Shown here: positions 18,236 through 63,285 of the stretch, piece by piece
Position numbering within the stretch: position 1 is the first letter of the stretch
How the letters are laid out: each line of letters starts with the position of its first letter
Origin: Collinsella aerofaciens
GTDB taxonomy: Bacteria; Actinomycetota; Coriobacteriia; Coriobacteriales; Coriobacteriaceae
Direction of reading: 5' to 3'
DNA length: 64,000 bases
Assembly (NCBI RefSeq): GCF_963360655.1
Contig: NZ_OY725712.1
Span: 1,302,001-1,366,000 of the forward strand
Translations under genes and position numbers: made by a program
Notes under the pieces: generated by a model
Told to the model about the DNA's origin: nothing
Seen by the model: the letters and a program-made list of their open reading frames with translations, nothing else
The model's database searches: none

Positions 18236-18317
18236 GAGATGAGTCGATTTGCCCCGAAAGAGGAGGGCATTGACCTTAGGGTCATGCCCGACGAATGAGC
18301 GGCAAATCGGCCATCTC
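18236..18317. repeat. Dispersed structured element, copy I
   Basis: Outer stem 18236-18253 with 18301-18317 (GAGATG and CGATTTGCC blocks, one bulge). Inner hairpin 18265-18289 has GGGCAT, GACC, loop TTAG, GGTC, ATGCCC. Same inner-hairpin plan as copies II-V; the conserved middle stem and flanking GACGCTGC are not evident, so this is the most diverged copy. It lies between convergent genes. Confidence 0.6.
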
Positions 18318-18328
18318 GGCGAGCCGAA

Positions 18329-20248
18329 CTACTCCAGCTCAAACGCTCCGGTATAGAGCTGGTAGTAATACCCGCGCTTGGCGATCAGCTCGTCGTGGTT
18401 GCCGCGCTCGATGATGCGGCCGTGGTCCAGACAGATGATCGCGTCGGAGTTGCGCACGGTGGACAGGCGGTGTGCGATGACAAACGTCGTGCGGCCTTCC
18501 ATGAGCTTGTCCATGCCGGCCTGCACGATAGCCTCGGTGCGGGTATCGATGCTCGACGTGGCCTCGTCCAGAATCATTGCCGGCGGATCGGCGACGGCGG
18601 CGCGTGCGATCGAAATCAGCTGACGCTGGCCCTGCGACAGCTGCGCGCCGTTGCCGGTGAGCATGGTGTCGTAGCCGTCGGGCAGGCGGGTGATAAAGTC
18701 GTCCGCGCCCGCGAGCTTGGCCGCCGCGATGCACTCCTCGTCGGTGGCATCCAGATTGCCGTAGCGGATGTTATCCATCACGGTGCCGGTGAACAGGTTT
18801 ACGTCCTGCAGCACCACGCCCAGCGAGCGGCGCAGGTCTGCCTTGCGGATCTTGTTGACGTTGATGCCGTCGTAGCGAATCTTGCCGTCGGCGATGTCAT
18901 AGAAGCGGTTGATGAGGTTGGTGATGGTCGTCTTACCGGCACCGGTGGCGCCGACAAACGCGACCTTCTGGCCCGGCTTGGCAAACACGGACACGCCGTG
19001 CAGCACCTCGTGGTCGGGCGTGTAGCCAAAGTCGACGTTGTCCATGACCAGGTCGCCACGCAGCGGCACGTACTCGATCTCGCCGGTTGCGCGGTGCGGA
19101 TGTTTCCACGCCCACATGCCGGTGTGGTGGTCGGCCTCCTCGAGCTGCCAGGTGTCGGGGTTGACCTGCGCGTTGACGAGCGTCACATAGCCTTCGTCGG
19201 CTTCGGGCTCCTCGTCGATGAGCTCAAAGATGCGGTCGGCGCCGGCGAGGCCCATGACCACTGCGTTGATCTGCTGCGAGATCTGACCGATCTGTCCGCA
19301 GAACTGCTTGGTCATGTTGAGGAACGGCACTACGACGGCGATGGACAGCGTCATGCCCGAGATGCTCAGATTGGGCACGCCCAGCGCCAGGAAAATGCCG
19401 CCTGCCAGTGCGACCAGCACGTAGAGCAGGTTGCCCAGGTTCATAAGGATAGGCATGAGGATGTTGGCGTACATGTTGGCCTTCTGCGAGACCTCGAAGA
19501 GCTTTTCGTTGCGCTCGTCAAAATCGGCCTCGGCGGCAGACTCGTGGCAGAATGCCTTGACGACCTTCTGGCCGTTCATGACTTCCTCGATATGGCCCTC
19601 GACCACGCCGAGCTCGGTCTGCTGCGCAATGAAGAAGCGCGCGGAGTTGGAGCCGAGCAGCTTGGTCATAAAGGTCATAAAGGCGACGCCGGCCACAATG
19701 ACCAGGCACATCCACACGCTGTAGTACAGCATGATAAAGAACACCGTGACGATGACGATGGTCGTCATGAGCAGGTTGGGCAGCGACTGGCTGATCATCT
19801 GGCGCAGCGTGTCGATGTCGTTGGTGTAGTGGCTCATGATGTCGCCGCGCTGATGCGTGTCGAAGTAGCGAATCGGCAGGTCCTGCATACGGTTGAACAT
19901 CTTCTCGCGCAGCTTTTCGAGCGAGCCCTGCGTGACGATGGCCATGGCGCGGTTCCAGAAGAGCGAAGACAGGATGCCGATGCCGTAGATGCAGGCGAGG
20001 GTGGTCACGAGCTGTGCGATCTTGGGCTGTGCGGCTTCCCAATCGCCCGACTGCCACGATTCGCTAATAATCTGCAGAGCGCTCTGAAGGAAGGTCGCAC
20101 CGATGGAGTTGATGATGGCGCAGAGCACCACGCCGACAACGACGAGGGGCAAAAGCACGGGGTAGAAGCCAAAGAGCGTCTTGATGAGGCGCGACATGGT
20201 GCCGCCCTTGCGGTTGAGTGCGCGCTCGGCGGTCGTTGCCTTACTCAT
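18329..20248 (-). CDS. ABC exporter half-transporter, subunit 2
   Basis: A 639-residue fused membrane domain (six spans) and nucleotide-binding domain of the MsbA/LmrA type. Walker A GATGAGKTT, signature LSQGQRQL and Walker B plus catalytic Glu in LDEATSS are canonical. It starts inside the previous gene (8-nt overlap 20241-20248), so the two halves are translationally coupled and probably form a heterodimer. Between the membrane and ATPase domains it carries an extra segment rich in acidic and His/Trp residues (around ADHHTGMWAWKHPH). Likely multidrug or lipid export under the MarR regulator. Confidence 0.92.
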   Translation of the reverse strand: MSKATTAERALNRKGGTMSRLIKTLFGFYPVLLPLVVVGVVLCAIINSIGATFLQSALQIISESWQSGDWEAAQPKIAQLVTTLACIYGIGILSSLFWNRAMAIVTQGSLEKLREKMFNRMQDLPIRYFDTHQRGDIMSHYTNDIDTLRQMISQSLPNLLMTTIVIVTVFFIMLYYSVWMCLVIVAGVAFMTFMTKLLGSNSARFFIAQQTELGVVEGHIEEVMNGQKVVKAFCHESAAEADFDERNEKLFEVSQKANMYANILMPILMNLGNLLYVLVALAGGIFLALGVPNLSISGMTLSIAVVVPFLNMTKQFCGQIGQISQQINAVVMGLAGADRIFELIDEEPEADEGYVTLVNAQVNPDTWQLEEADHHTGMWAWKHPHRATGEIEYVPLRGDLVMDNVDFGYTPDHEVLHGVSVFAKPGQKVAFVGATGAGKTTITNLINRFYDIADGKIRYDGINVNKIRKADLRRSLGVVLQDVNLFTGTVMDNIRYGNLDATDEECIAAAKLAGADDFITRLPDGYDTMLTGNGAQLSQGQRQLISIARAAVADPPAMILDEATSSIDTRTEAIVQAGMDKLMEGRTTFVIAHRLSTVRNSDAIICLDHGRIIERGNHDELIAKRGYYYQLYTGAFELE

Positions 20249-22055
20249 GTGCCTCGCCTCCTTCCTGGGTCTGAGCTTGCGTTACGGATGCCTCGGTGTC
20301 GGCCTCGACGGCTCCTTCGCCCTCGGCAGACATCTTGTTTTGCGAGGTAAAGGTCTCGCGGTAGATCTCGCTCGTCTTGAGCAGCTCGTCATGGTTGCCG
20401 ATCTGCGCGATACGGCCACCCTCCATGACGATGATGCGATCGGCGTCCTGCACGGAGCTGATGCGCTGGGCGATGATGAGCTTGGTCGTGTTGGGCAGAT
20501 AGCTTGCCAACCCTGCGCGGATCTTGGCGTCGGTCTTGGTGTCGACAGCGCTGGTGGAGTCGTCCAGGATTAAGATCTTGGGGCGACGCAGCAGGGCACG
20601 CGCAATGCACAGGCGCTGCTTCTGACCGCCGGAAACATTGGAGCCGCCCTGTTCGATCCAGGTGTCATAGCCCTTGGGGAAGCCATCGACAAACTCGTCG
20701 GCGCAGGCCAGATGTGCCGCCTCGCGGACTTCCTCGTCGGTGGCGTTCGGGTCGCCCCAGCGCAGGTTCTCGGCAATGGTGCCGCTAAACAGCACGTTTT
20801 TCTGCAGCACCATGGCCACTTGGTGGCGCAGCGCGTCCAGGTCGTAGTCGCGTACGTCCATGCCGCCCACGCGCACGGTGCCTTCGGTGGCGTCGTACAG
20901 ACGGGCGATGAGGTTTACAAGCGTGGACTTGGCCGAGCCGGTACCGCCGATGATACCGATGGTCTCGCCGCTCTTAATGTGCAGGTCGATATCGTCGAGC
21001 GCCTGGCGCTTCGCATGCGCGGAATACTTAAAGCTCACGTGGTCAAAGTCGATGGAACCGTCGGCAACCCCGAGCACGGGCTCGGCGGGATCGGCGATCG
21101 TGGGCTCGGCGGCCAGCACCTCGGTAATGCGGTGCGCCGATTCGTCGGCCATGGTCACCATGACAAAGATCATCGACAGCTGCATCAGGCTCATGAGGAT
21201 CGCGAAGCCATAGGTAAAGATCGAGGAGAGCTGGCCCACGTCGAACAGCGTGCCCTGGCTCGTGATGATGAGCTTGGATCCCAGGTAGATGATGATGACA
21301 AATGCGCCGTTGACGCAGATGTTCATCATGGGGTTGTTAAAGGCGAGCAGCTTCTCGGCGCGGGTGAAGTCCATCTGGACGTCGTGCGCGGCGGTGGCGA
21401 ACTTCTCCTTCTCAAAGTCTTCGCGCACGTAGCTCTTGACCACGCGCATGCCGGTGACGTTTTCCTCGACGGACTCGTTAAGGGCGTCGTACTTGTGGAA
21501 CACGCGCGAGAAGATGGGGCGTACCTTAAAGATGATAAAGAACAGTCCAAAGCCCAGCAGCGGAATGATGACCAGGTAGACCATGGCGACGCTGCCGCCC
21601 ATGGCGTAGGCCATGGCAAAGGCAAAGACCAGCACCAGCGGCGCGCGCACGGCGATGCGGATGAGCATCATAAAGGCCTGCTGCACGTTGTTGATGTCGG
21701 TGGTGAGGCGGGTGACGAGCGAGGAGCTCGAGAACTCATCGATGTTGGCAAAGCTGAACGTCTGGATCTTGTAGAACAGGTCGTGACGCAGGTTCTTGGC
21801 GAAGCCGCAGCTCGCATGACTGCAGGTGACGCCGGCAGCGGCACCAAAAGCGAGCGACGTCAGTGCGATGAGCACCAAAAAGCCTGCGGTGGGAAGCATC
21901 TGGGCGACGGTGGCACCGTCTTTGATGGCGTCGATCATGTCGGCGGTGATAAACGGGACCATCATTTCGCAGAGCACCTCGCCAAGCACCAGCAGCGGCG
22001 TGGCGATCGTGACCGTCTTGTAATCGCGGATGCTTCCCATGAGGGTTTTAATCAT
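20241..22055 (-). CDS. ABC exporter half-transporter, subunit 1
   Basis: A 604-residue half-transporter: six membrane spans, then an ATPase domain with Walker A GGTGSAKST, signature VSGGQKQR and Walker B LILDDSTSAVD. Asp replaces the catalytic Glu after Walker B, the usual mark of the degenerate-site partner in heterodimeric exporters such as LmrCD or BmrCD. The tail (about 575-604) is low-complexity Glu/Thr. It overlaps the MarR gene by 8 nt upstream and the partner subunit by 8 nt downstream. Confidence 0.92.
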   Translation of the reverse strand: MIKTLMGSIRDYKTVTIATPLLVLGEVLCEMMVPFITADMIDAIKDGATVAQMLPTAGFLVLIALTSLAFGAAAGVTCSHASCGFAKNLRHDLFYKIQTFSFANIDEFSSSSLVTRLTTDINNVQQAFMMLIRIAVRAPLVLVFAFAMAYAMGGSVAMVYLVIIPLLGFGLFFIIFKVRPIFSRVFHKYDALNESVEENVTGMRVVKSYVREDFEKEKFATAAHDVQMDFTRAEKLLAFNNPMMNICVNGAFVIIIYLGSKLIITSQGTLFDVGQLSSIFTYGFAILMSLMQLSMIFVMVTMADESAHRITEVLAAEPTIADPAEPVLGVADGSIDFDHVSFKYSAHAKRQALDDIDLHIKSGETIGIIGGTGSAKSTLVNLIARLYDATEGTVRVGGMDVRDYDLDALRHQVAMVLQKNVLFSGTIAENLRWGDPNATDEEVREAAHLACADEFVDGFPKGYDTWIEQGGSNVSGGQKQRLCIARALLRRPKILILDDSTSAVDTKTDAKIRAGLASYLPNTTKLIIAQRISSVQDADRIIVMEGGRIAQIGNHDELLKTSEIYRETFTSQNKMSAEGEGAVEADTEASVTQAQTQEGGEAHE

Positions 22056-22554
22056 CCAGTTCCTCCCAGGTTACGCGGATTTTTTCGAGCATCTCGGCGA
22101 GCTGTTCGCGCTCGTCGTGCGTAAGGGCGCTAAAGGCCTGTTCCCTAAAGCGAATGCGGGCTGCCTGCTCAACACGGGCCTTTTCCCATCCCGCTTCGGT
22201 CAGGCGGATGGTGAGCTGCCGACGGTCTTTGGGATTGCGACTGCGCTCGATAAGACCGCCCAGTTCGAGCTTGGACAGAATCTCGGAAAGGGACCCTGGC
22301 TTGAGGTCGAAGTGCATGCCGAGCTCCTGTTGGGACAGCTCGCCGGTCGGCTGCTTGGCGAGTAGGCAGACAATAGGCGCCTTGCCAGATATGCCGCCGC
22401 CGTGAAAATGCATGTAATGGCCGCAAAAACCCAGGCCGCTCAGGATGCGCTTGGCGAGTTTGTCTTCGGCGCTGACCGCTTCGGGTACATCCGCCGGCTG
22501 TGACGGGTCGCCGCCGGGCCCGTGCGAACAAAGGTTAAGAGGTTCATCGCACAT
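22048..22554 (-). CDS. MarR family transcriptional regulator
   Basis: A 168-residue winged-helix regulator; recognition region GELSQQELGMHFDLKPGSLS and wing NPKDRRQLTIRLT. Cys/His-rich N-terminus (MCDEPLNLCSHG, GFCGHYMHFHGG) may sense metals or oxidants. First gene of the exporter operon, with ATGATTAA overlap into subunit 1, so it probably autoregulates and represses the transporter. A good Shine-Dalgarno (AAAGGAG) precedes ATG 22554, and a candidate operator lies at 22579-22608. Confidence 0.9.
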   Translation of the reverse strand: MCDEPLNLCSHGPGGDPSQPADVPEAVSAEDKLAKRILSGLGFCGHYMHFHGGGISGKAPIVCLLAKQPTGELSQQELGMHFDLKPGSLSEILSKLELGGLIERSRNPKDRRQLTIRLTEAGWEKARVEQAARIRFREQAFSALTHDEREQLAEMLEKIRVTWEELDD

Positions 22555-22578
22555 GAATCAGTGTTGCTCCTTTCTTTA

Positions 22579-22608
22579 GTTAGGTAGTGGAATTGTTTTG
22601 TGCCTAAC
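22579..22608. promoter_or_regulatory. Candidate MarR operator
   Basis: GTTAGG 22579-22584 and CCTAAC 22603-22608 form a dyad; the extended half-sites TTAGTTAGGTA and TGCCTAACCAA match at 9 of 11 positions. It stands about 25 nt upstream of the MarR start codon. Confidence 0.45.
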
Positions 22609-22655
22609 CAATTTAGGAGTGTGAGAAATCAATGTCAAGGTGCCAAACTTATTAA

Positions 22656-22800
22656 GTTACGGCGTTTTGCCAAACGCCGTAACCGCTCGACGCTGCAAAC
22701 GCTCCTAAGCGGCAATCTGGCGTTCAATCGTCGGGCATGGCCACAAGGCCTATGCCCTCCTCTTTCACGCCACCTTGCTCGCTTAGGAACGTTTTCGCTG
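22656..22800. repeat. Dispersed structured element, copy II
   Basis: First hairpin 22656-22683: perfect 12-bp stem GTTACGGCGTTT around TGCC. Then GACGCTGC, and an outer stem 22697-22711 with 22780-22794 (AAACGCTCCTAAGCG, one mismatch). The middle stem is TGGCGT/ACGCCA and the inner hairpin 22733-22757 has GGGCATGGCC and loop ACAA. It ends in TCGCTGTC. It lies between divergent genes, so it is not simply a terminator. In the rest of the gap, 22801-23001, only a possible -10 box (TACACT 22946-22951) was seen. Confidence 0.85.
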
Positions 22801-23001
22801 TCCGTCCTCAACCTGTGATTCCGCCACGGTCCGTTTCGGTGCATGCAATCCCTTGGGGACGGAGGAAAAGGGATCATTTTCCGTAACCTTTCCGCAACAA
22901 TTTACCCTTCGCGCTGCTCGACTCCGCTCACAACGTCCCCTGCGCTACACTTAGTCGCACTGTGGCGCTGCTGCGCCGTGCCCGAACCAAGGGAGACCCT
23001 C

Positions 23002-23826
23002 ATGAAGAACACTCAGCTGCTGCTGATCAACGATATGTGCGGCTACGGCAAGGTCGCGCTTTCCGCCATGCTGCCGGTGCTGTCGCACATGGGCTACCGC
23101 ATCCACAACCTGCCGACGGCACTTGTGTCCGATACGCTCAACTATCCCAAGTTCTACATCCACGACACCACCGAGTACGTGCGCCAGAGCCTCGCCATCT
23201 GGGAGGAGCTCGGCTTTGAGTTCGACGCCATCTCTACCGGCTTTATCGTGACCGAGGAAGAGACGCGCATCATTTCGGACTTCTGCCACCGTCGCGCGCA
23301 AAAGGGTACCAAGGTGTTCGTCGACCCCATCATGGGCGACAACGGCAAGCTCTACGCCGGCGTGCCCGAGTCCACGATCGGTCTCATGCGCAGCCTGCTC
23401 GAGTGCGCCGACTATGCGGTGCCAAACTACACCGAGGCGTGCCTGCTCACCGATACGCCCATTGCCGAGCAAATCACGCCCGATGAGGGCCGCACTCTTG
23501 TGGATGCCGTGCGTGCCCTGGGCGCCAAGTCGGTGGTCATTACGAGCGCTGTGGTCGACGGTGCGAATGTCGTCATCGGTTACGACCATGTGGCGGGGGA
23601 GCACTTCACGATTCCCTTTGAGCTCATTCCGGTCTATTTCCCGGGCACGGGCGACACGTTCTCGGCGGTGCTCGTCGGCCGCGTTATGGCCGGTTGGAGC
23701 CTGCAGCGCGCGACGTCCGATGCCATGCGCGTGGTGGCTGGGCTTATCGAGCGCAATGCCGACCAAGAGGACAAGTCGGCTGGCCTTCCCATCGAGGCCT
23801 GCCTGGATGTGATTGACCATGAGTAA
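23002..23826 (+). CDS. Pyridoxal/pyridoxamine kinase (PdxY/PfkB-like)
   Basis: A 274-residue ribokinase-fold kinase. It begins with the typical LLINDMCGYGKVALSAML segment, contains DPIMGDNGKLY and NYTEACLL, and has the anion-hole/catalytic motif GTGDTFSA near residue 215. It would phosphorylate B6 vitamers to pyridoxal phosphate. ATG 23002 is preferred over the longer open frame because AGGGAG precedes it. Overlaps the next gene by 8 nt (ATGAGTAA). Confidence 0.9.
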   Translation: MKNTQLLLINDMCGYGKVALSAMLPVLSHMGYRIHNLPTALVSDTLNYPKFYIHDTTEYVRQSLAIWEELGFEFDAISTGFIVTEEETRIISDFCHRRAQKGTKVFVDPIMGDNGKLYAGVPESTIGLMRSLLECADYAVPNYTEACLLTDTPIAEQITPDEGRTLVDAVRALGAKSVVITSAVVDGANVVIGYDHVAGEHFTIPFELIPVYFPGTGDTFSAVLVGRVMAGWSLQRATSDAMRVVAGLIERNADQEDKSAGLPIEACLDVIDHE

Positions 23827-24148
23827 TGCTGGCGAGGGCGGCGCCAAGCCTGCGGGCGAGAACAAGCCGCTCGGCGCGCCGCGGGGCAAGCGTCCGCGCA
23901 TCCGCGTGAGCTGCGTGGACCAGCTGGGTGCGTGCCGCTGCCACCATGGTCACAAGCCGGGCGACGTTTTTGACTTCGACCGAGACCGCGGCAAGATGTG
24001 CGCCATGGCCTGCCATGTGGGCTTTCCCTATATCGATATCCTGCGCTATGGCGGAACCGTGCCTGGCAACGAGCCCGGCACGGCAAAGTTCTGCTGCCCC
24101 GAAGTCGATACACTGAACATTTGGCTCGCCGAGATCGTCGACGAGTAG
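23819..24148 (+). CDS. TIGR04076 family protein
   Basis: A 109-residue protein of unknown function. After a Gly/Lys-rich N-terminus it shows the family pattern: Cys pair (CRCHHGHKPGDVF), CAMACHVGFPYI, LRYGG and a C-terminal CCPE. The many Cys/His residues suggest a metal site. It is translationally coupled to the pyridoxal kinase, which may indicate a related role. Confidence 0.8.
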   Translation: MSNAGEGGAKPAGENKPLGAPRGKRPRIRVSCVDQLGACRCHHGHKPGDVFDFDRDRGKMCAMACHVGFPYIDILRYGGTVPGNEPGTAKFCCPEVDTLNIWLAEIVDE

Positions 24149-24150
24149 TC

Positions 24151-24243
24151 GAGCGTGGATTTTCTCCCGTTTAGAGCGTACTTGAGCGCTCAAAGTGGGA
24201 GATTGTCCACACTCAATTTGTATGCGGGAGATTATCCACGCTC
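24151..24243. repeat. Three copies of an 18-nt motif between convergent genes
   Basis: Motif GAGYGTGGAYWWTCTCCC: 24151-24168 on plus, 24197-24214 and 24226-24243 on minus (29-nt period). The outer copies can pair with each other, and a perfect palindrome TTGAGCGCTCAA sits between them at 24182-24193. Function unknown; termination or a repetitive element are possible. Confidence 0.6.
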
Positions 24244-24280
24244 ATTTTGCGCCGAAGACGTGGCCCGCGACCTCGCTTAC

Positions 24281-24727
24281 CTACAGCTGCTCGAGCATAG
24301 CGGTACAACCGGCGAGCACGTCGCGGTAGGTGGCGTCGAAGTTGCCGGTGTACCAGGGATCGGCCACGTCGCCGGGGCGCTCGGTCCAATCGAGCAGGCG
24401 CGTAATTTTGCCGTCGGGGTCGTCGCCAAAGATGCGACGCAGGTCACGCGCGTTCTCGGCATCCATATAGACAATGTGATCCAAGTCGCCATACTCCGCG
24501 CGACGCACCTGACGTGCGCGATGTGCGACGACGGGAATCCCGACCTCGCGCAGCTTGGCGACCGTGCCACGATGCGGCGGGTTGCCGATCTCCTCGGTTG
24601 AGGTCGCTGCGGAATCGATGACAAACTCCGACTCGCGCCCAGCGCGGCGCACGAGCTCGGTAAACACCGACTCAGCCATCGTCGAGCGACAGATATTCCC
24701 GTGGCAAATAAACAGTACGTGCTGCAT
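24281..24727 (-). CDS. Low-molecular-weight protein-tyrosine phosphatase
   Basis: A 148-residue cytoplasmic phosphatase. The P-loop C8-HGNIC-R14-S and the acid/loop motif DPWY (about 122-125) are intact. This family removes phosphate from tyrosine or arginine residues of regulatory proteins. Stands 33 nt downstream of the DUF4143 ATPase gene on the same strand and may be co-transcribed with it. Confidence 0.93.
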   Translation of the reverse strand: MQHVLFICHGNICRSTMAESVFTELVRRAGRESEFVIDSAATSTEEIGNPPHRGTVAKLREVGIPVVAHRARQVRRAEYGDLDHIVYMDAENARDLRRIFGDDPDGKITRLLDWTERPGDVADPWYTGNFDATYRDVLAGCTAMLEQL

Positions 24728-24760
24728 ATGATGGTTCCTTTCTGGGCGGTCGCGCGGGGG

Positions 24761-26131
24761 TTACAGACTGCCCTTGAGGCAGTTTGCTCCGATAAAGCCC
24801 GCTGCGTACAAGGGGAGATGGCGCAGCTCGCGTCCGTCATCGGTTTCGCTGCGGGCAAAATTGTTCTCGGACAATATGTAGGCATACGGCGACCGGGCTT
24901 TTTCCATAAACGACCCGAGCGTTCTCGCGCGCACGTTGCGTGCGGATTTTACCTCGACGGGAACGATCTCCATACGGTCGGTCTGAAGTAGAAAATCGAG
25001 CTCGCCGTTCGTCTTCCAAGACGACGGTGGCATCCAGTAATACGTCTGCAAACCATTGCCCGAAAATGCCTGCATGACCGAGTTCTCCGCCAAGGCACCT
25101 CGAAAGTCGGAAGACAGCGCAATGGCGGAATCCTCTTTGAGGTCGAGCCAGAGTCGCGGGTTGATACCGAGTTTGTAGAACATGAGGCCCGTATCGAGAA
25201 GATAGACCTTAAAGAAGCTCCCGTCTTCGTCGTCGAAGGGGACGAGGGGAGGTTCGATGCCTTCGGTCAGGTTGTTGACCGATATGATGCCGGCGCCCTC
25301 GAGCCAGTCGAGTGGCTCGATGAGCTTTGAGCGTCGGCCTCCGCGTTCGACCTCGGAGTACTTGAATTTCTTGGTTGAGGATCGTAGCAGCTGGGATGGA
25401 ATGGAGCGCCAGACCTTGCGCGCTGCTACGCCGCTGATCCCGTTTTCGGGGTCGGTCATATCGGCGGTGTAGGTCTCGTCGATTTCGCGCTGCTCGACGC
25501 GCGCGTCTTCGATGGAAAGCGTCTTGCGATATGCGTTGACGGCGGCGGGCATGCCGCCCACGATTTGGTATCGATGAAACAGGTTGAGCGCGGCTTGGTG
25601 TGCGGCGTAGGTCTCGAGCGTGTCGGCGTGGGCACGAACGGCATCGGCCATCTGCTCCTCGCCGAGCGCCCAGAGAAACTCCTCGAACGACATGGGATGC
25701 ATGGTCTCTTGGCGGACGCCACTGGGAAAAGGCAGCTTGCGCTTGCGCGTGGCGACGCCGAGCTGACTGCCGGTCGCGCATATGCGCCAGCCCGAACCCG
25801 AGAAAAAGCGAAGCGAGTTGAGCGCCCGTTCACAGAGCTGAACCTCGTCAAACAGGATGAATGCGGTTTCTTTGCGAATGGGGGTGCGTTTATAGTCTGA
25901 GATTCGTGCCACGATGGTGTCAACGTCGTCGGTGGGGCAGTCGAACAGCGGGGCAATCAGCTCAAGATCGGTCTGAAAGTCGAGTTTGACAAACGCATCG
26001 CCGGCGATTCGTCTGCCGATTTCCTCGGCAGCGTACGTTTTGCCCACGCGTCGTGCGCCACGGATGAGGAGGGGGCGCGAGGCGTCCTTTGTCGCCCATG
26101 ATTCGATAACGGATTCGATTGATCTGCGCAT
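24761..26131 (-). CDS. AAA-type ATPase with DUF4143 domain
   Basis: A 456-residue protein. Walker A GARRVGKT at residues 25-32, Walker B ILFDEVQ, sensor-like CATGS; then a helical middle region and a C-terminal DUF4143, nuclease-like domain (GALAENSVMQAF, ELDFLLQ, PVEVKSA). Such proteins are common accessory ATPases of unclear function. Three related palindromes stand within 110 nt upstream of its start codon and may be its operators. Confidence 0.88.
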   Translation of the reverse strand: MRRSIESVIESWATKDASRPLLIRGARRVGKTYAAEEIGRRIAGDAFVKLDFQTDLELIAPLFDCPTDDVDTIVARISDYKRTPIRKETAFILFDEVQLCERALNSLRFFSGSGWRICATGSQLGVATRKRKLPFPSGVRQETMHPMSFEEFLWALGEEQMADAVRAHADTLETYAAHQAALNLFHRYQIVGGMPAAVNAYRKTLSIEDARVEQREIDETYTADMTDPENGISGVAARKVWRSIPSQLLRSSTKKFKYSEVERGGRRSKLIEPLDWLEGAGIISVNNLTEGIEPPLVPFDDEDGSFFKVYLLDTGLMFYKLGINPRLWLDLKEDSAIALSSDFRGALAENSVMQAFSGNGLQTYYWMPPSSWKTNGELDFLLQTDRMEIVPVEVKSARNVRARTLGSFMEKARSPYAYILSENNFARSETDDGRELRHLPLYAAGFIGANCLKGSL

Positions 26132-26150
26132 GGGGCTGCCTTTCCAATTT

Positions 26151-26240
26151 CATGTACTTCAAATACATAGTTTAGTACGATTTCGTGTACTTGAAATACA
26201 CGAAATCGTGGAAAAACGTGTATTTCAAGTACACGAAATT
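26151..26240. promoter_or_regulatory. Three related palindromes upstream of the DUF4143 ATPase
   Basis: 26152-26168 has arms ATGTA/TACAT. 26180-26206 has perfect 10-bp arms ATTTCGTGTA/TACACGAAAT around CTTGAAA. 26217-26235 has arms CGTGTA/TACACG around TTTCAAG. All share GTAYTTSAAATAC-like cores, the third inverted. AT-rich compared with surroundings. Probably operator sites for the gene starting at 26131. Nothing else was recognised in 26241-26343. Confidence 0.55.
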
Positions 26241-26343
26241 GAACCGCTGGAGCCTGCGGGCGGATAAACACTGCTCGTATGGTGTGGTTTTCATCGGACG
26301 CCCGCCGCGCTGAGCTGTACTTGCGCCTGCCTCGATCCCACCC

Positions 26344-27609: not shown

Positions 27610-27674
27610 GTTGCGTTATATGAGCTAGATTCAGTCTCTGCAACTCTAGCAGAATACGACAAGAAGCAGCGCCT

Positions 27675-27715: not shown

Positions 27716-27755
27716 GAAGATGGTCTCAGGTACATCGCGGGCGACAGGAGATCCC

Positions 27756-29732: not shown

Positions 29733-29811
29733 CTGCACCTGTCGCTCAACCCCGCTGCCAAGAGTGGGACAATAGCCCTCGACACCGTTGTTTACTATTG
29801 GAGGAAGTAGC

Positions 29812-30705
29812 ATGTCCACCGTCACTACCATCAAGCGCGGCGGCCTCATCGCGGCCATCGATTCCATGGGCGCCCAGCTCACGAGCCTTGCCCTCAACGG
29901 CAACGAGTATCTGTGGCAGGGCGACCCGGCCTTTTGGGGCAAGCATGCGCCTATCCTGTTCCCCATCGTGGGATCGCTGCGCAACAACATGGCGACATCT
30001 GCGGCCGGCACCTGCGAGATGCCGCGCCACGGACTCGCTCGCATCGTCGAGCACAAGTTGGTCGAGGTTTCGGAGGACGGCTCCTCGGTAACGTACGAGA
30101 TCACTGACACGCCCGAGTCGCTCAAGGCGTTCCCGTTCCACTTTAAGCTCAACATGACCTATGCCCTGACCGGCGACGCCACGCTCACGCAGACCTTTGC
30201 CGTCACCAACACCGGCGACGTGGCCCTGCCGTTCTCGGTGGGCGGTCATCCTGCATTCAACGTGCCCGCCCCCGGTGCCGAAGACGAGGCGTTCGAGGAT
30301 TACGAGCTGGCGTTTACCGAGGCTTGGACTAACGAGGCTCCCATCATCACGCCCGACGGTCTTATGACGTTCGAGGGTAGCTACAAGGCTCCCGATAACT
30401 CGGACGTGCTGCCCATTACGCACCGCAGCTTCGATAACGATGCCATCATGTTCACCGATACCCCGGGCTCCACGCTCACGCTGCGCGGTCGCAAGTCGGG
30501 CCACGGCGTCAAGATCGACTTTGAGGGCTTTAAGTACATCGGCGTGTGGTCTGCCGCCAACGACGCCCCGTTTGTGGCGCTCGAGCCCTGGACCGGTCAC
30601 ACCACCATGGACACCGAGGACGACGTTTTTGAGCACAAGGTCAACACGATCACGCTGGCGCCGGGCGAGACGGACAAGCGCAGTTTTAGCGTTACCTTGC
30701 TCTAG
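29812..30705 (+). CDS. Aldose 1-epimerase family protein (LacX-like)
   Basis: A 297-residue galactose-mutarotase-fold protein. Typical features are GAQLTSL, APILFPIVGSL, the histidine motifs MPRHGLAR and GGHPAFNVP, and the C-terminal EPWTGHT. LacX-type members interconvert sugar anomers; the substrate here is unknown. ATG 29812 has GGAGGAAG upstream. Followed immediately by structured element copy III, whose inner hairpin can terminate it. Confidence 0.9.
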   Translation: MSTVTTIKRGGLIAAIDSMGAQLTSLALNGNEYLWQGDPAFWGKHAPILFPIVGSLRNNMATSAAGTCEMPRHGLARIVEHKLVEVSEDGSSVTYEITDTPESLKAFPFHFKLNMTYALTGDATLTQTFAVTNTGDVALPFSVGGHPAFNVPAPGAEDEAFEDYELAFTEAWTNEAPIITPDGLMTFEGSYKAPDNSDVLPITHRSFDNDAIMFTDTPGSTLTLRGRKSGHGVKIDFEGFKYIGVWSAANDAPFVALEPWTGHTTMDTEDDVFEHKVNTITLAPGETDKRSFSVTLL

Positions 30706-30706: not shown

Positions 30707-30835
30707 GGTTCCGCCGCTCGGTCGATGCTGCGCGTCGTCCAGAGCGACAAGTTGTCATTCAAAAGGCAAGGCATAGACCTTCTGGTCATGCCTTGCCTTT
30801 TTCATGCCACTTGTTCGCTCTGGACGTCGCTCGCC
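30707..30835. repeat. Dispersed structured element, copy III
   Basis: Conserved GATGCTGC, outer stem 30732-30751 with 30810-30830 (CGTCCAGAGCGA core), middle stem TGTCAT/ATGCCA, and inner hairpin 30763-30799 with loop TTCT. The first GTTAC-type hairpin is reduced here. Begins two bases after the epimerase stop codon. Confidence 0.8.
30763..30803 (+). terminator. Terminator after the LacX-like gene, inside element copy III
   Basis: AAGGCAAGGCAT..GACC 30763-30779 pairs with GGTCATGCCTTGCCTT 30784-30799, loop TTCT, then T residues to 30802. Confidence 0.7.
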
Positions 30836-30854
30836 GGCATTGCCAAAACATCGG

Positions 30855-46482: not shown

Positions 46483-47550
46483 ATGCGCGACAAGCTCGAA
46501 AAGATTATTAAGGCCTACGAGGAGCTCGAGAAGAAGCTCTCCGACCCGGCCGTCGCCTCCGACATCAAGGAGTTCACGCGTCTCAACAAGGAGTACGCAC
46601 ACCAGTCCGACCTCATCGCCGCCTCGCGCGAGTACATCGGCGCGCTCGATGACATCGAGGCCGCCAAGGAGATGCTCCGCGACACCAGCGATGCGGACGA
46701 GAAGGAGATGCTCCAGATGGACATCTCCGAGAACGAGGAAAAGCTCCCACAGCTCGAGGAAGACATCAAGTACATGCTCATCCCGAGCGACCCCAACGAC
46801 GACAAGAACACCATCGTCGAGATCCGCTCCGCCGCCGGTGGCGACGAGGCCGCCATCTTTGCCGGCGATCTGTACAAGATGTACCAGCGCTTCTGCGAGT
46901 CGCGTGGTTGGAAGACCACGGTGCTCGATTCCAGCCCCAGCGAGGCTGGCGGCTTTAAGTCCATCGAGTTCAAGGTCGAGGGCGACCGCGTCTACTCCGT
47001 CATGAAGTACGAGTCCGGCGTGCACCGCGTCCAGCGTGTCCCCAAGACCGAGTCCCAGGGCCGTATCCAGACTTCCACGGCTACCGTCGCCGTGCTTCCC
47101 GAGGCCGAGGAGATCGACGTCCAGATTAACCAGTCCGATCTGCGCATCGACACCTACTGTGCTTCCGGCCCTGGCGGTCAGTGCGTTAACACTACCTACT
47201 CCGCCGTGCGCATTACCCACCTGCCCACCAACACCGTGGTGCAGTCGCAGGAGCAGCGCTCCCAGATTCAGAACCGCGAGGTCTGCATGCAGATGCTGCG
47301 CGCCCGTCTGTACGAGATGGAGCTCGAGAAGCAGCAGGCCGAGCTCGGTGCCGAGCGTCAGAGCCAGATCGGCCACGGCAACCGTTCCGAGAAGATCCGT
47401 ACCTACAACCAGCCCCAGGACCGTGTGACCGATCACCGCATCGGCTTCAACTCCACCTACAACGGCGTGCTTCTGGGCGACCAGCTCGGCACCGTCATCG
47501 AGGCCCTCGCCGCCGCCGAGCGAGCCGAGAAGCTGGCACAGGCTGTGTAG
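46483..47550 (+). CDS. prfA: Peptide chain release factor 1
   Basis: A 355-residue RF1. The N-terminal coiled-coil domain is followed by the PxT anticodon tripeptide (PKT in RVPKTES, with RF2 expected to have SPF) and the catalytic GGQ in SGPGGQCVN. Releases peptides at UAA and UAG. AAAGGAG stands upstream of ATG 46483. Together with prmC downstream, which methylates the GGQ glutamine, it forms a classical pair, here separated by 632 bp of repeats. Confidence 0.97.
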   Translation: MRDKLEKIIKAYEELEKKLSDPAVASDIKEFTRLNKEYAHQSDLIAASREYIGALDDIEAAKEMLRDTSDADEKEMLQMDISENEEKLPQLEEDIKYMLIPSDPNDDKNTIVEIRSAAGGDEAAIFAGDLYKMYQRFCESRGWKTTVLDSSPSEAGGFKSIEFKVEGDRVYSVMKYESGVHRVQRVPKTESQGRIQTSTATVAVLPEAEEIDVQINQSDLRIDTYCASGPGGQCVNTTYSAVRITHLPTNTVVQSQEQRSQIQNREVCMQMLRARLYEMELEKQQAELGAERQSQIGHGNRSEKIRTYNQPQDRVTDHRIGFNSTYNGVLLGDQLGTVIEALAAAERAEKLAQAV

Positions 47551-47697
47551 GTTCCGCCGTTCTACCGAACGGCGGACCAGCCGACGCTGCGCGGGCCGCA
47601 TTTGGACAATCTGACGTTCAACTTCAAGGGCGCGACCAGAAGGTCAGCGCCCTTTCGTTTCACGTCACCTTGTCTCAAATGCGACCCGCTCGCTGTC
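47550..47697. repeat. Dispersed structured element, copy IV
   Basis: First hairpin 47550-47578 (CCGCCGTT/AACGGCGG) starts on the last base of the prfA stop codon. Then GACGCTGC, outer stem 47591-47607 with 47671-47689 (GCGGG, CGCATTT), middle stem TGACGT/ACGTCA, and inner hairpin 47628-47652 with GGGCGCGACC and loop AGAA. CGCTGTC follows. Confidence 0.85.
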
Positions 47698-47761: not shown

Positions 47762-47790
47762 GTAGTCATTGGGGACGTTCTTAAATGACT
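47762..47790 (+). repeat. REP-like palindrome with GTAG head
   Basis: Begins GTAGTCATT, loop GGGGACGTTCTTA, closing AATGACT. The same 29-nt sequence recurs at 63320-63348 with one difference. A GTAG tetranucleotide followed by an imperfect palindrome is the layout of REP sequences handled by RAYT transposases. Confidence 0.7.
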
Positions 47791-47793
47791 AGG

Positions 47794-48182
47794 TTGGGCA
47801 CATTGCTTTGAGATGTTATTCAATCGGCTTTGATGGCCATGAAGTCGGCTACCTGCTCAAAGAAATTAGCGGCATTCATCTGCTATTGAAAATAATGCTC
47901 GAAAAATCGTTCAAGAAGTCGCGGGGCGATTTTTGATGCGTCGCGCGTCAAGTGATTTGGCAAGTTCTTGGTTAGATATTGGTTAGTTTTGGGGCAACCT
48001 TGCCAAAAGCTTGACGAATGCAAATCTAGACGTCGGCGAATGAACACTTTGAGCGAGCTCGGTGCAAAAATCTGGGCTGATTCTCGATAATCGCCTTCAA
48101 TCGTCCCTTGCCAAGCGCTGGCCTCGCGTACAATCTGCTCCGACATTCGCGCGCCGTCCGGCGCTTAAGAGGGGAGGGCCCC
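47794..48182. other. 389-bp gene-free stretch before prmC
   Basis: No convincing gene. Two hairpins are visible: GAAAAATCG 47901-47909 with CGATTTTT 47927-47934, and TTTGGCAAG 47956-47964 with CTTGCCAAA 47999-48007 (the latter enclosing two GGTTAG repeats). Slightly AT-richer than its surroundings. It may hold the prmC promoter, which was not identified. Confidence 0.4.
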
Positions 48183-53569: not shown

Positions 53570-53631
53570 AGTCACCAATGTTTGGCGGGAACTGTCCTGT
53601 GAGGCGATAAAAAAGGAAAGTGAGGACGCCA

Positions 53632-53943: not shown

Positions 53944-53946
53944 GTC

Positions 53947-54750: not shown

Positions 54751-54874
54751 TCTTCCGTTCGCGCCTTAAAGGTAAGGCAATTCGTTAAACCGCCGGTGCC
54801 CGTACCCATGGAGCCCGGCAGTTATAAAAAGGTTATCCTGCGTGAAATAAGACACGCACGACAAAGGAGGAATC

Positions 54875-55069: not shown

Positions 55070-55084
55070 CACGGAGCGTCAAGT

Positions 55085-55687: not shown

Positions 55688-56153
55688 CCGCTATCAGGAC
55701 AAGGTACTCGAGACCTACGCGCGCTCCCTTTTGGAAGCCGCCAAGGCCGAGAACCATGTGTTCGAGGACCTCGAGATGATCGAGCGCCTGGCTAGCGCCA
55801 GCCCCGAGATTATCGCCGTGCTCGACACCATGTCCAAGCGCGACCAGCTCGACCTTCTTCCCAAGGTGGCAGCTGCCTTTAAGTATGTTGCCGAGGAAGA
55901 CGAGGATGTAGTGGGCGTGACCGTCACCACGGCGATCCCGCTCGACGACGAGCTGCGTCAAACCATCACTAAGAAATGCGAGCAGGACTTCGGCCGCAAG
56001 GTATTCCTTATCGAGCAGGTCGACCCGTCTATCGTGGGCGGCCTGGTGCTCGAGGCCCGCGGCGAGCGTCGTGACATTTCCGTCAAGACGCAGCTGCGCG
56101 TCGCGCAGGAGACCCTCGCAAACTCTGCTAATTCGTACGGAGGTGAAGCCTAA
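55677..56153 (+). CDS. atpH: F-type ATP synthase subunit delta
   Basis: A 158-residue OSCP/delta subunit joining the b stalk to the F1 head. C-terminal motif [23 protein letters not shown] is typical. It starts inside atpF and its stop overlaps the atpA start by one base. Confidence 0.94.
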
Positions 56154-57751
56154 TGTCCGAAACCCTCAATGCCCAGGATATCGCCAAGAAACTGCAGGAG
56201 CAGCTCACGAGCCTCTCCGCGACGGTCGATACGCATGAGGTTTCAACGGTCGACGAGGTAGGCGACGGCATCGCGCGTGTCTCCGGCCTCAAGAGCGCCA
56301 TGGCAGGCGAGCTTCTGGAGTTCAAGAGCTCCGATACCGGTGAGACCGTCTTCGGCCTTGCCCAGAACCTTGACCGTGACGAGGTCGGCGCCGTTCTGTT
56401 CGGTGCCGTCGACTCCATCAAGGAAGGCGACGAGTGCCGCACCACTGGCCGCATTATGGATATCCCCGTGAGCCGTGCCATGCTCGGCCGCGTCGTCAAT
56501 CCGCTCGGCCAGCCCATCGACGGTCTGGGTGACATCGTCGCCACGCATCGTCGCCCCATCGAGTTCAAGGCCCCCGGTGTCATCGACCGTACCCCGGTGT
56601 GCGAGCCGGTTCAGACCGGCCTGTTGGCCATCGACTCCATGGTGCCTATCGGCCGTGGTCAGCGTGAGCTCATCATCGGCGACCGTAAGACCGGTAAGAC
56701 CGCCATCGCCATCGACGCTATCCTCAATCAGCGCGGCAAGGGCATGGTCTGCATCTATGTCGCCATCGGCCAGAAGGCCTCCACGGTTGCCAACATCCGC
56801 GAGACCCTCGCTCAGCACGGTGCGCTCGACTACACCATCATCGTTTCGGCCACCGCTGCCGATTCCGCCCCTATGCAGTACATCGCGCCTATGGCCGGTG
56901 CCGCTATCGGCGAGTTCTTTATGTACAACGGCGAGGACGGCAAGCCTGCCAGCGAGACCAACCCCGGCGGTCACGTGCTCGTCATCTACGACGACCTGTC
57001 CAAGCAGGCCGTGGCCTACCGTCAGATGTCGCTGACGCTGCATCGTCCGCCCGGACGCGAGGCCTATCCTGGCGACATCTTCTACCTGCACTCTCGTCTG
57101 CTCGAGCGTGCCGTCAAGATGTCCAAGAAGAACGGTTACGGCTCCATGACGGCTCTGCCGATCATCGAGACCCAGGACGGCGACGTCTCGGCCTACATTC
57201 CGACCAACGTTATTTCCATTACCGATGGTCAGATCTACCTGCAGTCCGAGCTCTTCTTCCAGGGTCAGCGCCCGGCAGTCGACGTGGGTATCTCCGTGTC
57301 CCGCGTCGGTGGCGATGCACAGACCAAGGCCATGAAGCAGGTCGCCGGCAACCTCCGTCTGGACCTTGCTTCGTACCAGGAGCTCGCCGGCTTTACGCAG
57401 TTCGGCTCCGACCTCGACGAGGCCACGCAAAAGCAGCTTACCCACGGCGCTCGCATGACCGAGCTCCTGAAGCAGCCGCGTTATAAACCGTTTGAGGTTG
57501 GCGAGCAGATCGTTACGCTGTTTGCTGGCAACGAGGGCTTCCTGGATGACCTGGAGATCGCCGACGTGCTGCCTTTCCGTGCCGAGCTTATCGAGTATAT
57601 GGACAATGGCTTTGGCTCGCTGCTCGACAAGGTTCGCGCCAAGAAGATCGACGACGACACCAAGGCCGAGCTCTTGCGTGTCATTGGTGACTTCAAGCAG
57701 CAGTTCATGGCCAAACACCATGCCGACACGACTGGATCAGAGGAGAACTAA
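56153..57751 (+). CDS. atpA: F-type ATP synthase subunit alpha
   Basis: A 532-residue non-catalytic F1 subunit. P-loop [13 protein letters not shown] and the alpha signature [13 protein letters not shown] are present. Start ATG 56153 shares a base with the atpH stop. Confidence 0.97.
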
Positions 57752-57756
57752 GCCCT

Positions 57757-60119
<2,363 letters not shown>

Positions 60120-60122
60120 GTT

Positions 60123-60515
60123 ATGCGTATCCGCATCGTGTGCCCCGTGAGCTGCGCCTATGAGGGCGACGCTGCGTTTGTGTCGATTCCGTCCACGGAT
60201 GGCGAGTTTGGTGTTCTGCCTGCTCACTCCAGCGAAATCTGCACGATCGACCGCGGTTACGTTCGCGTTTCCGATAAGGCCATGGGCACTGTCGACCACA
60301 CGTTTGCCGTGGCCGGCGGCTATGCCCAGGTTGCGGACGATGTCGTGACCGTTCTCGCCGAGCGCGCTTGCGATTTGGCGACCGTCGACGCCGACAAGGT
60401 TAAAGCTGATATTCAAGGTTTTGAAGAGAAGCTGGGTAATTTGTCGGAGGATGATGCACGCCGCGCCTACCTCTATAATGAAATCGCATGGTGTAAGCTC
60501 AAGCTTGCCCAATAG
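60123..60515 (+). CDS. atpC: F-type ATP synthase subunit epsilon
   Basis: A 130-residue subunit: beta-barrel with GEFGVLPAHS and a two-helix C-terminal part (DADKVKADIQGFEEKLGN). Last gene of the operon, followed by a terminator. Confidence 0.95.
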   Translation: MRIRIVCPVSCAYEGDAAFVSIPSTDGEFGVLPAHSSEICTIDRGYVRVSDKAMGTVDHTFAVAGGYAQVADDVVTVLAERACDLATVDADKVKADIQGFEEKLGNLSEDDARRAYLYNEIAWCKLKLAQ

Positions 60516-60551
60516 TCAGACGTTTTAGCGTTCGACCATTTGCGAACACAT

Positions 60552-60590
60552 CATGCCCGGGATGGCTCAGCCACCCCGGGCATGCTTTTT
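60552..60590 (+). terminator. Terminator of the ATP synthase operon
   Basis: CATGCCCGGG 60552-60561 pairs with CCCGGGCATG 60575-60584; TGGCT/GCCA inside extends the stem; CTTTTT follows. Confidence 0.9.
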
Positions 60591-60603
60591 GAAAGGGTAG
60601 ACC

Positions 60604-61887
60604 TTGGATATTATCCGCGTTGAGGGTGGCCACGCCATCGGAGGTTCCGTGCCTGTTTCGGGTGCCAAGAACTCCGCGCTCAAACTTATGGCGGCAACGC
60701 TTCTGGCGCCGGGCAAGACGACGCTGCAGAACGTGCCTGATATTTCCGATGTCCACGTGATGGGCAAGGTGCTCAAGGGTATGGGCGCCACGATCGATGT
60801 TCTCGACGAGCACACGCTCGAGATTGATACCTCTCAGGTCGATTCTTGGGAGGCCCCCTACGAGCTCGTTGCCAAGATGCGTGCTTCCACCGCCGTCATG
60901 GGACCCCTGCTGGGTCGCTTCCATCGCGCCAAAATTGCCATGCCGGGCGGCTGCAACCTGGGTGCTCGCAAGATCGATATGCACATTCTTGGTCTTGAGG
61001 CCCTGGGCGTTGAGTTCGATACCGCCCACGGTTACATCAACGCTAATGCGCCCCAAGGTCTGCGCGGTACCACCGTCACGCTCGAGTTCGCCAGCGTCGG
61101 TGCGACCGAGAACCTCATCATGGCCTCTGTGCGCGCACAGGGTACCACGGTTATCGACAATGCCGCCCGCGAGCCCGAGATCGTCGATCTCGCTAACATG
61201 CTCAACGAGATGGGCGCCAAGATTGTTGGCGCCGGTACGCCCGTCGTGACCATCGAGGGCGTGGAAGAGCTGCATCCTGTTACCCATCGCGTAGTGGGCG
61301 ACCGCATCGAGGCCGGTACCTTTATCGTCGCCGGTGCGCTGATGGCCGACGATCGCGGTGTTGACGTCACGGGTTTTTGCCCCATTCACTTGGGCATGGT
61401 TCTCAAGAAGATGGAGCTTATGGGCATCGATTGCGAGCGTACCGACGACGGCGTCCATGTGAACCGTGCCGAGCGTATCAAGCCGGTCGATATCCAGACG
61501 CTTCCGTTCCCCGGTTTCCCGACCGACATGCAGGCGCAGATTATGGTGCTCTCCGCCCTTGCCGACGGCAGTTCCGTTATTACCGAAAACATCTTCGAGA
61601 ATCGCTTTATGTTTGCCTCTGAGCTGGTGCGCATGGGTGCCGACATTCGTATCGAGAGCCATCATGCCATGATTCATGGCGTCAAGGGCTTCTCGGGTGC
61701 ACAGGTTACCTCGCCCGATCTGCGTGGCGGAGCGGCCCTCGTCGTAGCGGGCTTGATCGCCGACGGGACGACCGAGGTTTCGGCCATCCATCACATCAAG
61801 CGCGGCTACGAGCAGTTTGTCGAAAAGCTGCAGGCGCTCGGCGCGCATGTCGAGCATGCTACCGTCCCCGATCCCGTCATCTACTAA
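60604..61887 (+). CDS. murA: UDP-N-acetylglucosamine 1-carboxyvinyltransferase
   Basis: A 427-residue MurA, first committed step of peptidoglycan synthesis. SGAKNSALKLMAA carries the conserved Lys; the active-site loop MPGGCNLGARKID has Cys as in fosfomycin-sensitive enzymes. TTG 60604 is the start, with AAAGGG about 8 nt upstream; the family begins at this DIIRVEGG segment. Seven codons-length gap before the LCP gene suggests co-transcription. Confidence 0.95.
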   Translation: MDIIRVEGGHAIGGSVPVSGAKNSALKLMAATLLAPGKTTLQNVPDISDVHVMGKVLKGMGATIDVLDEHTLEIDTSQVDSWEAPYELVAKMRASTAVMGPLLGRFHRAKIAMPGGCNLGARKIDMHILGLEALGVEFDTAHGYINANAPQGLRGTTVTLEFASVGATENLIMASVRAQGTTVIDNAAREPEIVDLANMLNEMGAKIVGAGTPVVTIEGVEELHPVTHRVVGDRIEAGTFIVAGALMADDRGVDVTGFCPIHLGMVLKKMELMGIDCERTDDGVHVNRAERIKPVDIQTLPFPGFPTDMQAQIMVLSALADGSSVITENIFENRFMFASELVRMGADIRIESHHAMIHGVKGFSGAQVTSPDLRGGAALVVAGLIADGTTEVSAIHHIKRGYEQFVEKLQALGAHVEHATVPDPVIY

Positions 61888-61899
61888 TACAGGTTGCCT

Positions 61900-63135
61900 A
61901 TGTTTAATAAAAAGCCCCTCGCGGATACCACCGCCCGAAGACCCTCAACTGGTGCGCAGGCCAAGATCTACAGTCGCGATAACGTGGCTCGCTATTCCGA
62001 GCGCGCTCGTCAACGTCGTCGTAGCCACACGATTCGTCACGTCGCGCTCATTGTCGTGCTTGGCGTGCTGCTGAGTGCCACTACCGCTGCCGGCCTGTGG
62101 TTTGCCACCATTATGGGCAAGCTCGGCGATTCTAATGTCATTACCGACAATCTGCGTCGGGTTCTGGTTGACACCGATGAGGCAAAGGATCCGTTCTACG
62201 TGCTGCTTCTTGGCACCGACGGCCGTCCGGGCGAGGATACGTATCGTGCCGACTCGATTATCCTGGCACGCATCGACCCCACGCAAAAGCAGGCGACGCT
62301 CATTTCCGTTCCGCGCGACACCAAGGTCGAGTACAAGGGCGAGACCATGAAGATCAACGCCTGCCATACCGTTGGCGGCGCCGAGGCCATGGTCGAGGCG
62401 GTCAACGAGCTGTGCGGTGTTCAGATTTCCCACTATGCCGAGGTCAGCTTCGACGGTATGCAGGCGCTGATTGATTCGGTTGGCGGTATCGACATTAACG
62501 CAACCGATGATGTTGACGACCCCGAGCACCTGGATATTAAGATTACCGCTGGTCAGCAGCATATGGACGGCGCCACCGCCCTTACCTATGCCCGCTGCCG
62601 CTACACCTATGCCGACGGCGACTACACGCGCATGCGCCACCAGCGTCAGGTGCTTGGCGCCCTTGCCAACCAGATTCTCAATAACTTCGATGCCACGAAG
62701 ATCTTTGGCCTGGTTAATTCGCTGTCCGATATGCTCGTGACCGATATGAGCGTTCAGGATATCGTGGCTACGGTCAATGCCATGCGCGGTATGGATGTCG
62801 ACGGCATCTACTCGGCCAACCTGCCCTCGTATGCCGACGACAGCACCATGATCGACGGTGTGAGCTACGTCTTTGTCTACGAGGACGAGCTCAAGGAAAT
62901 GATGGAGCGCGTCGATGCCGGCAAGGATCCCAAGGGTCCCAACACCATGGGTCTTTCCGACGGTTCCAGCTCTACGATCGGCGACCTGAACAACAACACG
63001 TCTGACGACTACGCAAACGGTACCGCAACCTCATCGGTCAGCTCTGACGATTCCGATGACTCAAGCGATTCGAGCGATTCGGACTACTACGAAGAGCCCA
63101 CCGGCGACGGCAACGGCTACGAAGCCAACTACTAG
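61900..63135 (+). CDS. LytR-CpsA-Psr (LCP) family protein
   Basis: A 411-residue membrane-anchored enzyme. Basic cytoplasmic N-terminus, membrane helix about 47-70, LCP domain about 95-245 with LGTDGR, RADSIILARID, PRDTKVEY, INACHTVGG and CRYTYADGDYTRMRHQRQ (conserved Arg/Asp residues for pyrophosphate and lipid binding). It attaches glycopolymers to peptidoglycan. The tail (about 346-411) is Ser/Asp-rich and disordered. Start ATG 61900 has only a weak ribosome site; TTG 61894 is the alternative. Confidence 0.92.
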   Translation: MFNKKPLADTTARRPSTGAQAKIYSRDNVARYSERARQRRRSHTIRHVALIVVLGVLLSATTAAGLWFATIMGKLGDSNVITDNLRRVLVDTDEAKDPFYVLLLGTDGRPGEDTYRADSIILARIDPTQKQATLISVPRDTKVEYKGETMKINACHTVGGAEAMVEAVNELCGVQISHYAEVSFDGMQALIDSVGGIDINATDDVDDPEHLDIKITAGQQHMDGATALTYARCRYTYADGDYTRMRHQRQVLGALANQILNNFDATKIFGLVNSLSDMLVTDMSVQDIVATVNAMRGMDVDGIYSANLPSYADDSTMIDGVSYVFVYEDELKEMMERVDAGKDPKGPNTMGLSDGSSSTIGDLNNNTSDDYANGTATSSVSSDDSDDSSDSSDSDYYEEPTGDGNGYEANY

Positions 63136-63136
63136 A

Positions 63137-63285
63137 GTTACGCGGTTTTACCAAACCGCGTAACCAGTTGACGCTGCAAACCCGCCAGAGCGGCAATCTG
63201 CCTTTCAACTTCGGCGGCATGATCAAAAGATCAATGCCACCTCGTTTCAAGGCACCTTGCTCGCTCTGGCGGGTTTTCGCTGTCG
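63137..63285. repeat. Dispersed structured element, copy V
   Basis: First hairpin 63137-63164: perfect 12-bp stem GTTACGCGGTTT around TACC. Then GACGCTGC, perfect 15-bp outer stem 63178-63192 with 63262-63276 (AAACCCGCCAGAGCG), middle stem TGCCTT/AAGGCA, and inner hairpin 63216-63238 with GGCATGATC and loop AAAA; ends TCGCTGTC. Best-preserved copy. Confidence 0.87.

Follow-up and report, generated by a model that had tools for sequence, protein, structure and literature searches.

The hairpins described here form a family dispersed across a bacterial order. They lie in sense orientation behind stop codons and along the direction of replication, they are gained, lost and replaced at orthologous sites, and their stems are paired without a preference for G-U. 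Five copies are found in the window (the whole stretch of 64,000 nt of Collinsella aerofaciens DNA that was analysed), where a preliminary description had noted them as structured elements with one shared plan; all five are present in the sequence and do follow that plan.

Architecture, pairing and covariation

The whole element measures ~150–200 bp and consists of an optional 28-nt 5' hairpin, a near-fixed flank (GACGCTGC), a long imperfect hairpin (~105 nt, with fixed internal loops), the sequence TCGCTG(A/T)C and a short 3' linker; the core is ~113 nt long. The 5' hairpin has the form GTTACGCGGTTT-TACC-AAACCGCGTAAC or a compensated variant of it. By inspection, the 5' end (the 5' hairpin) and the 3' end (the linker) are not complementary, so that there are no terminal inverted repeats. 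Directly 3' of the hairpin there is no U-run, near-invariant TCGCTG following the outer stem. Neither GTAG nor CGTC is found as an unpaired end tag, the flanks being GACGCTGC and TCGCTG(A/T)C; CGTC occurs on the bottom strand only, at the opposite end from that of published CGTC repeats. Integron core boxes (consensus GTTRRRY/RYYYAAC) were not seen on inspection of the element ends.

As had been described, copies II, IV and V have a 5' hairpin, complete in each, and copy III a reduced one, of which a remnant is left; copy I has none. Copy I (core hairpin at 18222–18332; covariance model score 51.3 bits) exists as stated, except that it lies on the minus strand, directly 3' of an ABC-transporter gene on that strand (18329–20248; Pfam ABC_membrane/ABC_tran) whose sense stop is overlapped by the 5' edge of the core. 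The other four are on the plus strand. The 5' hairpin of copy II, GTTACGGCGTTTTGCCAAACGCCGTAAC (22656–22683), has a 12-bp stem and a 4-nt loop and is followed by the core at 22689–22800 (119.2 bits). Copy III, with its hairpin remnant at 30707–30723 and its core at 30724–30836 (90.2 bits), lies behind the stop of an aldose-epimerase-like gene (29788–30705; Pfam Aldose_epim). In copy IV the 5' hairpin (47551–47578) begins at the very stop codon (distance 0 nt) of a gene for a peptide chain release factor (46483–47550; Pfam PCRF and RF-1); two successive 3' linkers, perhaps left over from an older copy, stand downstream of its core (47583–47695; 119.9 bits). Copy V comprises a 5' hairpin (63137–63164) 1 nt behind the stop (63133–63135) of a LytR-CpsA-Psr gene (Pfam LytR_cpsA_psr), a core at 63170–63282 (124.8 bits) and a 3' linker of type A (...GTGCCAAAACATCGGCG; 63283–63306) common to several of the copies compared. 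As a whole it is 92–95% identical to four other copies at unrelated loci of the same genome. Two details of the preliminary description need correction: the flank that it gave for four copies is indeed GACGCTGC except in copy III, which has GATGCTGC, and the middle stem TGTCAT/ATGCCA forms five of its six pairs, the sixth position being a T-C mismatch.

Other repeats were noticed in the window. REP-like palindromes of the form GTAGTCATTGGGGACGTTCTTAAA(T/C)GACT (47762–47795 and 63321–63350) occur downstream of many copies. Their GTAG tag is that of repeats mobilised by RAYT, and they appear to form a family of their own. A long imperfect inverted repeat (CTACTACGTTT ... AAACGTAGTAG) at 6088–6249, with a similar one in another species (L268), probably represents another dispersed family, and a near-perfect inverted repeat of 97 nt at 26145–26241 is rich in GTACTT/AAATAC units.

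Covariation was assessed on 21 copies. Paired cells amounted to 90.4%, versus 71.4% in shuffles and 30–42% in slid controls; the slid controls are lenient, since the structure was drawn from the same 21 sequences and is thereby favoured over them, and the comparison with shuffles is inflated by the relatedness of the copies. Both sides had changed in 27 of 37 pairs, and the covariation score was 0.480 versus 0.158, with none of 500 shuffles as high. The covariation on which the preliminary description had staked its proposal is thus strong. Single-strand folding of copy V gave z-scores of about −9.4 and −10.5 on the two strands.

Selection on a sense RNA should leave single mismatches that are far more often G-U than A-C. 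When mismatches were counted by per-sequence pairing with symmetric scores, the element stems had 12 G-U versus 27 A-C, whereas terminator-like hairpins from the same genus, scored by the identical procedure, had 30 versus 7 (Fisher, P = 1e-5). Because the terminators had been found by their T-run, G-T at stem ends may be over-represented among them, and a count deep in helices was added (G-U/A-C of 11/23 for the element and 18/7 for terminators). Among copies at least 90% identical there were 38 compensated pairs, 19 G-U, 26 A-C and 17 other mismatches. A slight A-C excess would implicate the bottom strand instead of the lagging-strand template; as a strand signal (P = 0.02) it was not confirmed within close groups (P = 0.37), and no strand is claimed on this ground. 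The wobble counts weigh against selection on a sense RNA. They do not thereby prove selection at the DNA level, because conversion between types or arm-templated correction could also compensate changes. The idea of a new structured RNA family is accordingly weakened: on the sense strand there is no excess of G-U over A-C, unlike in terminators of the same genus. More generally, strong covariation alone need not signify a functional RNA, and the comparison of G-U with A-C, which separates the two readings, can be used elsewhere.

Distribution, stop codons and replication direction

A BLAST-type search of the genome to which the window belongs gave 28 matches, some of them antisense matches of the same hairpin. 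The covariance model R1 gave 54, or about 35–40 places once antisense self-matches are subtracted, and 34 copies among ~40 places were clear enough for analysis. Within the genus, the covariance model detected the element in 38 of 43 species (0–55 matches per genome, some antisense self-matches included); within the order, it did so in 85 of 247 genomes, representing 24 of 99 genera. The search of relatives proposed earlier thus did yield many further copies. Across the order the flanks, the loops and often the 5' hairpin are kept. No match was obtained in phage, plasmid and viral collections; a wider scan of genome contigs, from which close records are possibly absent, gave three single matches in unrelated organisms that we judged to be due to chance. 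The comparison with Rfam that had been suggested, Collinsella-1 motif included, brought nothing that counts: with E-values up to 1, only matches to microRNA and ctRNA families far below gathering scores were obtained in the window, Collinsella-1 being absent, and in six stretches of genome G002, scanned at the gathering threshold, the only matches were to tRNAs and a SAM riboswitch. A family with these traits was found neither in Rfam nor in the open-access literature searched.

The preliminary description had placed copies after stop codons and between divergent genes. Both placements are correct, the second for copy II, but the rule itself (sense strand, no more than ~12 nt from the stop) had been missed. 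Taking the 5' hairpin, or the core where there is none, as the 5' edge, 29 of the 34 copies start 12 nt or less from the stop of a long sense ORF (28 without the miscalled carA-carB copy), and in other genomes 22 of 30 copies are at a sense stop (20-nt limit). By chance, a random intergenic point and strand would fall 0–10 nt behind a sense stop with a frequency of 0.029 (an 11-nt zone, with rough gene calls). The exceptions in this genome are copy II, which lies between divergent genes with no long sense ORF ending there, one copy behind a terminator (L051), L052, one in an orientation opposite to its neighbours (L064) and copy III (18 nt, with its decayed 5' hairpin). Just 5' of copy II there ends a possible reading frame of seven codons (MSRCQTY; 22632–22655) with a ribosome-binding-like GGAG upstream. 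Copies without a 5' hairpin follow the rule too, which is therefore not a property of that hairpin. That the elements are not merely terminators, as had been stated, is consistent with copies between co-transcribed-looking genes (hisF-hisI and pheS-pheT, identified by recognised protein starts) and with the missing U-run. Small mobile palindromes are common, but no other is known to us that keeps to the sense strand and to a position a few bases from stop codons throughout an order.

The copies also tend to run with the replication fork. In G002, a genome in one contig with its origin near 1.87 Mb and its terminus near 0.6–0.8 Mb by GC skew, 26 of 29 copies are co-directional with the fork, versus ~61% of roughly called genes (P = 0.0007; baseline from 400 kb of G002 and the window). 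In G023, for which the copies themselves served to define the replichores, the figure is 24 of 29; the pooled value (50/58, P = 2e-5) is generous for that reason. Higher co-directionality of housekeeping genes may explain part of this bias.

Gain, loss and replacement at orthologous sites

Comparison of orthologous loci, proposed earlier as a check for empty sites, revealed both empty and occupied alleles. At one site (L050) nine species are empty: their two convergent genes overlap at CTAG/TTAG/TTAA. Another 11 carry an insert of ~200–330 bp with TA on both sides (TAG...CTA); in the genome of the window, a different core type with a longer 3' part occupies the same place. This is the one site at which an apparent target-site duplication (TA/CTAG on both sides) was seen. 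Behind tyrS (this name and carA, hisF, pheS and purH were assigned by reading protein ends by eye), three core types start at the identical nucleotide in 10 occupied species; the 10 empty ones keep a typical native terminator, which is gone from the occupied alleles. A terminator was likewise lost from the occupied allele at a further site (L056), and right boundaries are lost at sites other than L050 (tyrS, L056). The copy between carA and carB (L071) was rejected as a stop-adjacent one, the empty-site comparison showing that the element had entered the last carA codons at the shared sequence GGTTCCGCC; in this genome and in G005 the carA frame ends inside the element, giving a new C-terminal tail.

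Internal deletions, tandem copies (L098, L099) and chimeras in which one arm derives from another type (L274 and, in the genome of the window, L068) occur among the copies and indicate recombination between them. Together with the variable copy number, the near-identical copies at unrelated sites and the empty and occupied alleles, they support the mobile-element reading that had been offered as an alternative to an RNA family: the element either moves or is replaced again and again.

It also seems to serve as a specific target for an insertion sequence. An element that resembles the IS110 family by its protein is inserted at the identical base of the 3' foot (TTTCGCT|CATATGACCC) at three unrelated genes (L061 and L272, the same site in two species; L226; L177). 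Another IS110-like element was found in GTAGTCGTTGGG|TGTTCC, inside a REP-like repeat downstream of the hairpin element (L049, L103; several genomes).

As to a mover, the genome of the window holds four identical IS200 copies and one RAYT-like gene. IS200 was rejected as a candidate (four identical copies, with unrelated ends). An orthologue of the RAYT (at least 77% identity) occurs in 20 of 23 sampled high-copy genomes versus 0 of 19 low-copy ones (P = 3e-9), a correlation confounded by the fact that its presence tracks one clade; three high-copy genomes (G019, G029 and G030) have only distant RAYTs. No element copies flank the RAYT gene. The enzyme TnpA_REP binds folded single-stranded DNA in a strand-specific manner and cuts at CT, 5' or 3' of the hairpin (PMC8266576). 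CGCTG is found on both sides of the element hairpin, and such flanks would fit this mode of cutting.

Possible origins and comparison with known systems

We put at about even the chance that the element is a non-autonomous repeat that travels as a single-stranded DNA hairpin, possibly moved by a RAYT-type HUH enzyme. Both its maintenance and its movement would depend on one DNA strand in folded form, most likely the sense strand while it lies exposed as the template of lagging-strand synthesis. The enzyme would act in trans; the best candidate is a RAYT-type nuclease, which would cut at the CT steps of the repeated CGCTG flanks. On arrival the element would replace or displace the native terminator region; copies would then be reshuffled by recombination, and arm mismatches would be removed by hairpin selection or by arm-templated correction. 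Conversion tracts from other types may account for some of the compensated changes. A single clean insertion event was not observed; terminators are missing from the occupied alleles at tyrS and at the L056 site. Nor does the RAYT mechanism explain the stop rule, because a DNA enzyme cannot see the reading frame; that the tie to stop codons comes from exposure of the sense strand at the end of translation is a guess. In a bolder version, which we consider unlikely, the element represents a novel class of mobile single-strand hairpin that inserts in a manner coupled to the termination of translation, for example by entry into the sense strand exposed where ribosomes leave, and that thereby colonises gene 3' ends and replaces terminators throughout the order. 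If the stop rule reflects insertion, target-site choice is tied to gene ends; if it reflects function, the element is a widespread and interchangeable gene-end device.

The fixed place behind stops would be accounted for by a cis-acting RNA at mRNA 3' ends, because the transcript would fold after the ribosome stops, there to act as a terminator, a 3'-end shield or a processing site. Sense orientation and stop adjacency across the order, conservation on the same scale, native terminators missing where the element sits (tyrS, L056) and copies between co-transcribed-looking genes all agree with such an RNA. We nevertheless hold it to be rather unlikely, given stems that show no G-U preference, TCGCTG instead of a U-run after the hairpin, two sites from which the element is missing, in 9 of 20 species in one case and in 10 of 20 in the other, and no Rfam match in the window. 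A host DNA site, such as a cruciform or a replication or transcription signal, kept for its function and with copies spread by selection, would suit the bias along the replication direction, the pairing at DNA level and the occupation of the purH site in two families (L114, L117); it is hard to reconcile with 0–55 matches per genome among species of one genus and with orthologous sites that are freely empty, and we rate it as improbable.

Insertion by a DDE transposase into TA, with duplication of TA (or CTAG) and stop codons supplying the TA, would make the element ERIC- or MITE-like, and ERIC is of similar size and an imperfect palindrome. TA does stand on both sides of the L050 insert, and many left flanks read TA|GTT or TAA|GTT. 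Yet the 5' hairpin and the 3' end do not form terminal inverted repeats, the left junction shifts by several nucleotides, an apparent target duplication is seen at one site only and TA alone fails to explain stops that are true to the reading frame; the probability of this origin appears low. Lastly, the covariation could be a mere by-product of hairpin-templated correction during replication, without function and kept by inertia. It would suit the very high frequency of compensated pairs in closely related copies, where no G-U intermediates bridge the changes, but correction is expected to erase the internal loops and flanks that are fixed across families, and both the arrival at new sites and the stop rule would have to be explained by something else. 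We rate it as very improbable.

REP elements are dispersed extragenic palindromes with conserved stem irregularities, mostly located behind genes (PMC3733652). Our element is likewise a dispersed extragenic palindrome with fixed stem irregularities behind genes, in a genome with a RAYT-like gene. It differs from REP/REPIN sequences in its hairpin of ~105 nt plus a separate 5' hairpin (REPs have 20–40 bp), in having neither a GTAG tag nor a copy beside the RAYT gene, and in its fixed orientation 0–12 nt from a stop codon. ERIC/IRU-type repeats (also RUP and NEMIS) are imperfect palindromes of 100–170 bp, intergenic and with no mover encoded (see PMC2759123). Compared by this description, they resemble the element in size, imperfect palindromy, intergenic location and absence of an encoded mover. 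To our knowledge, neither a stop-codon rule nor a replication bias has been reported for ERIC. DDE-type MITEs, ERIC/IS630-like ones included, are set apart by their terminal inverted repeats. Intrinsic terminators share with the element a hairpin behind the stop, and native ones are absent at two occupied sites; the element has no U-run, is far longer and has a G-U/A-C pattern unlike that of terminators from the same genus. From a structured RNA family it is distinguished by the lack of tolerance for G-U over A-C on the transcribed strand. Integron attC sites are imperfect hairpins with fixed extrahelical features and free stem sequence that lie behind a stop codon in fixed orientation. The element, too, is an imperfect hairpin with fixed loops, behind a stop and in fixed orientation; it differs in having no GTTRRRY/RYYYAAC boxes, and its copies do not form cassette arrays but are scattered behind housekeeping genes.
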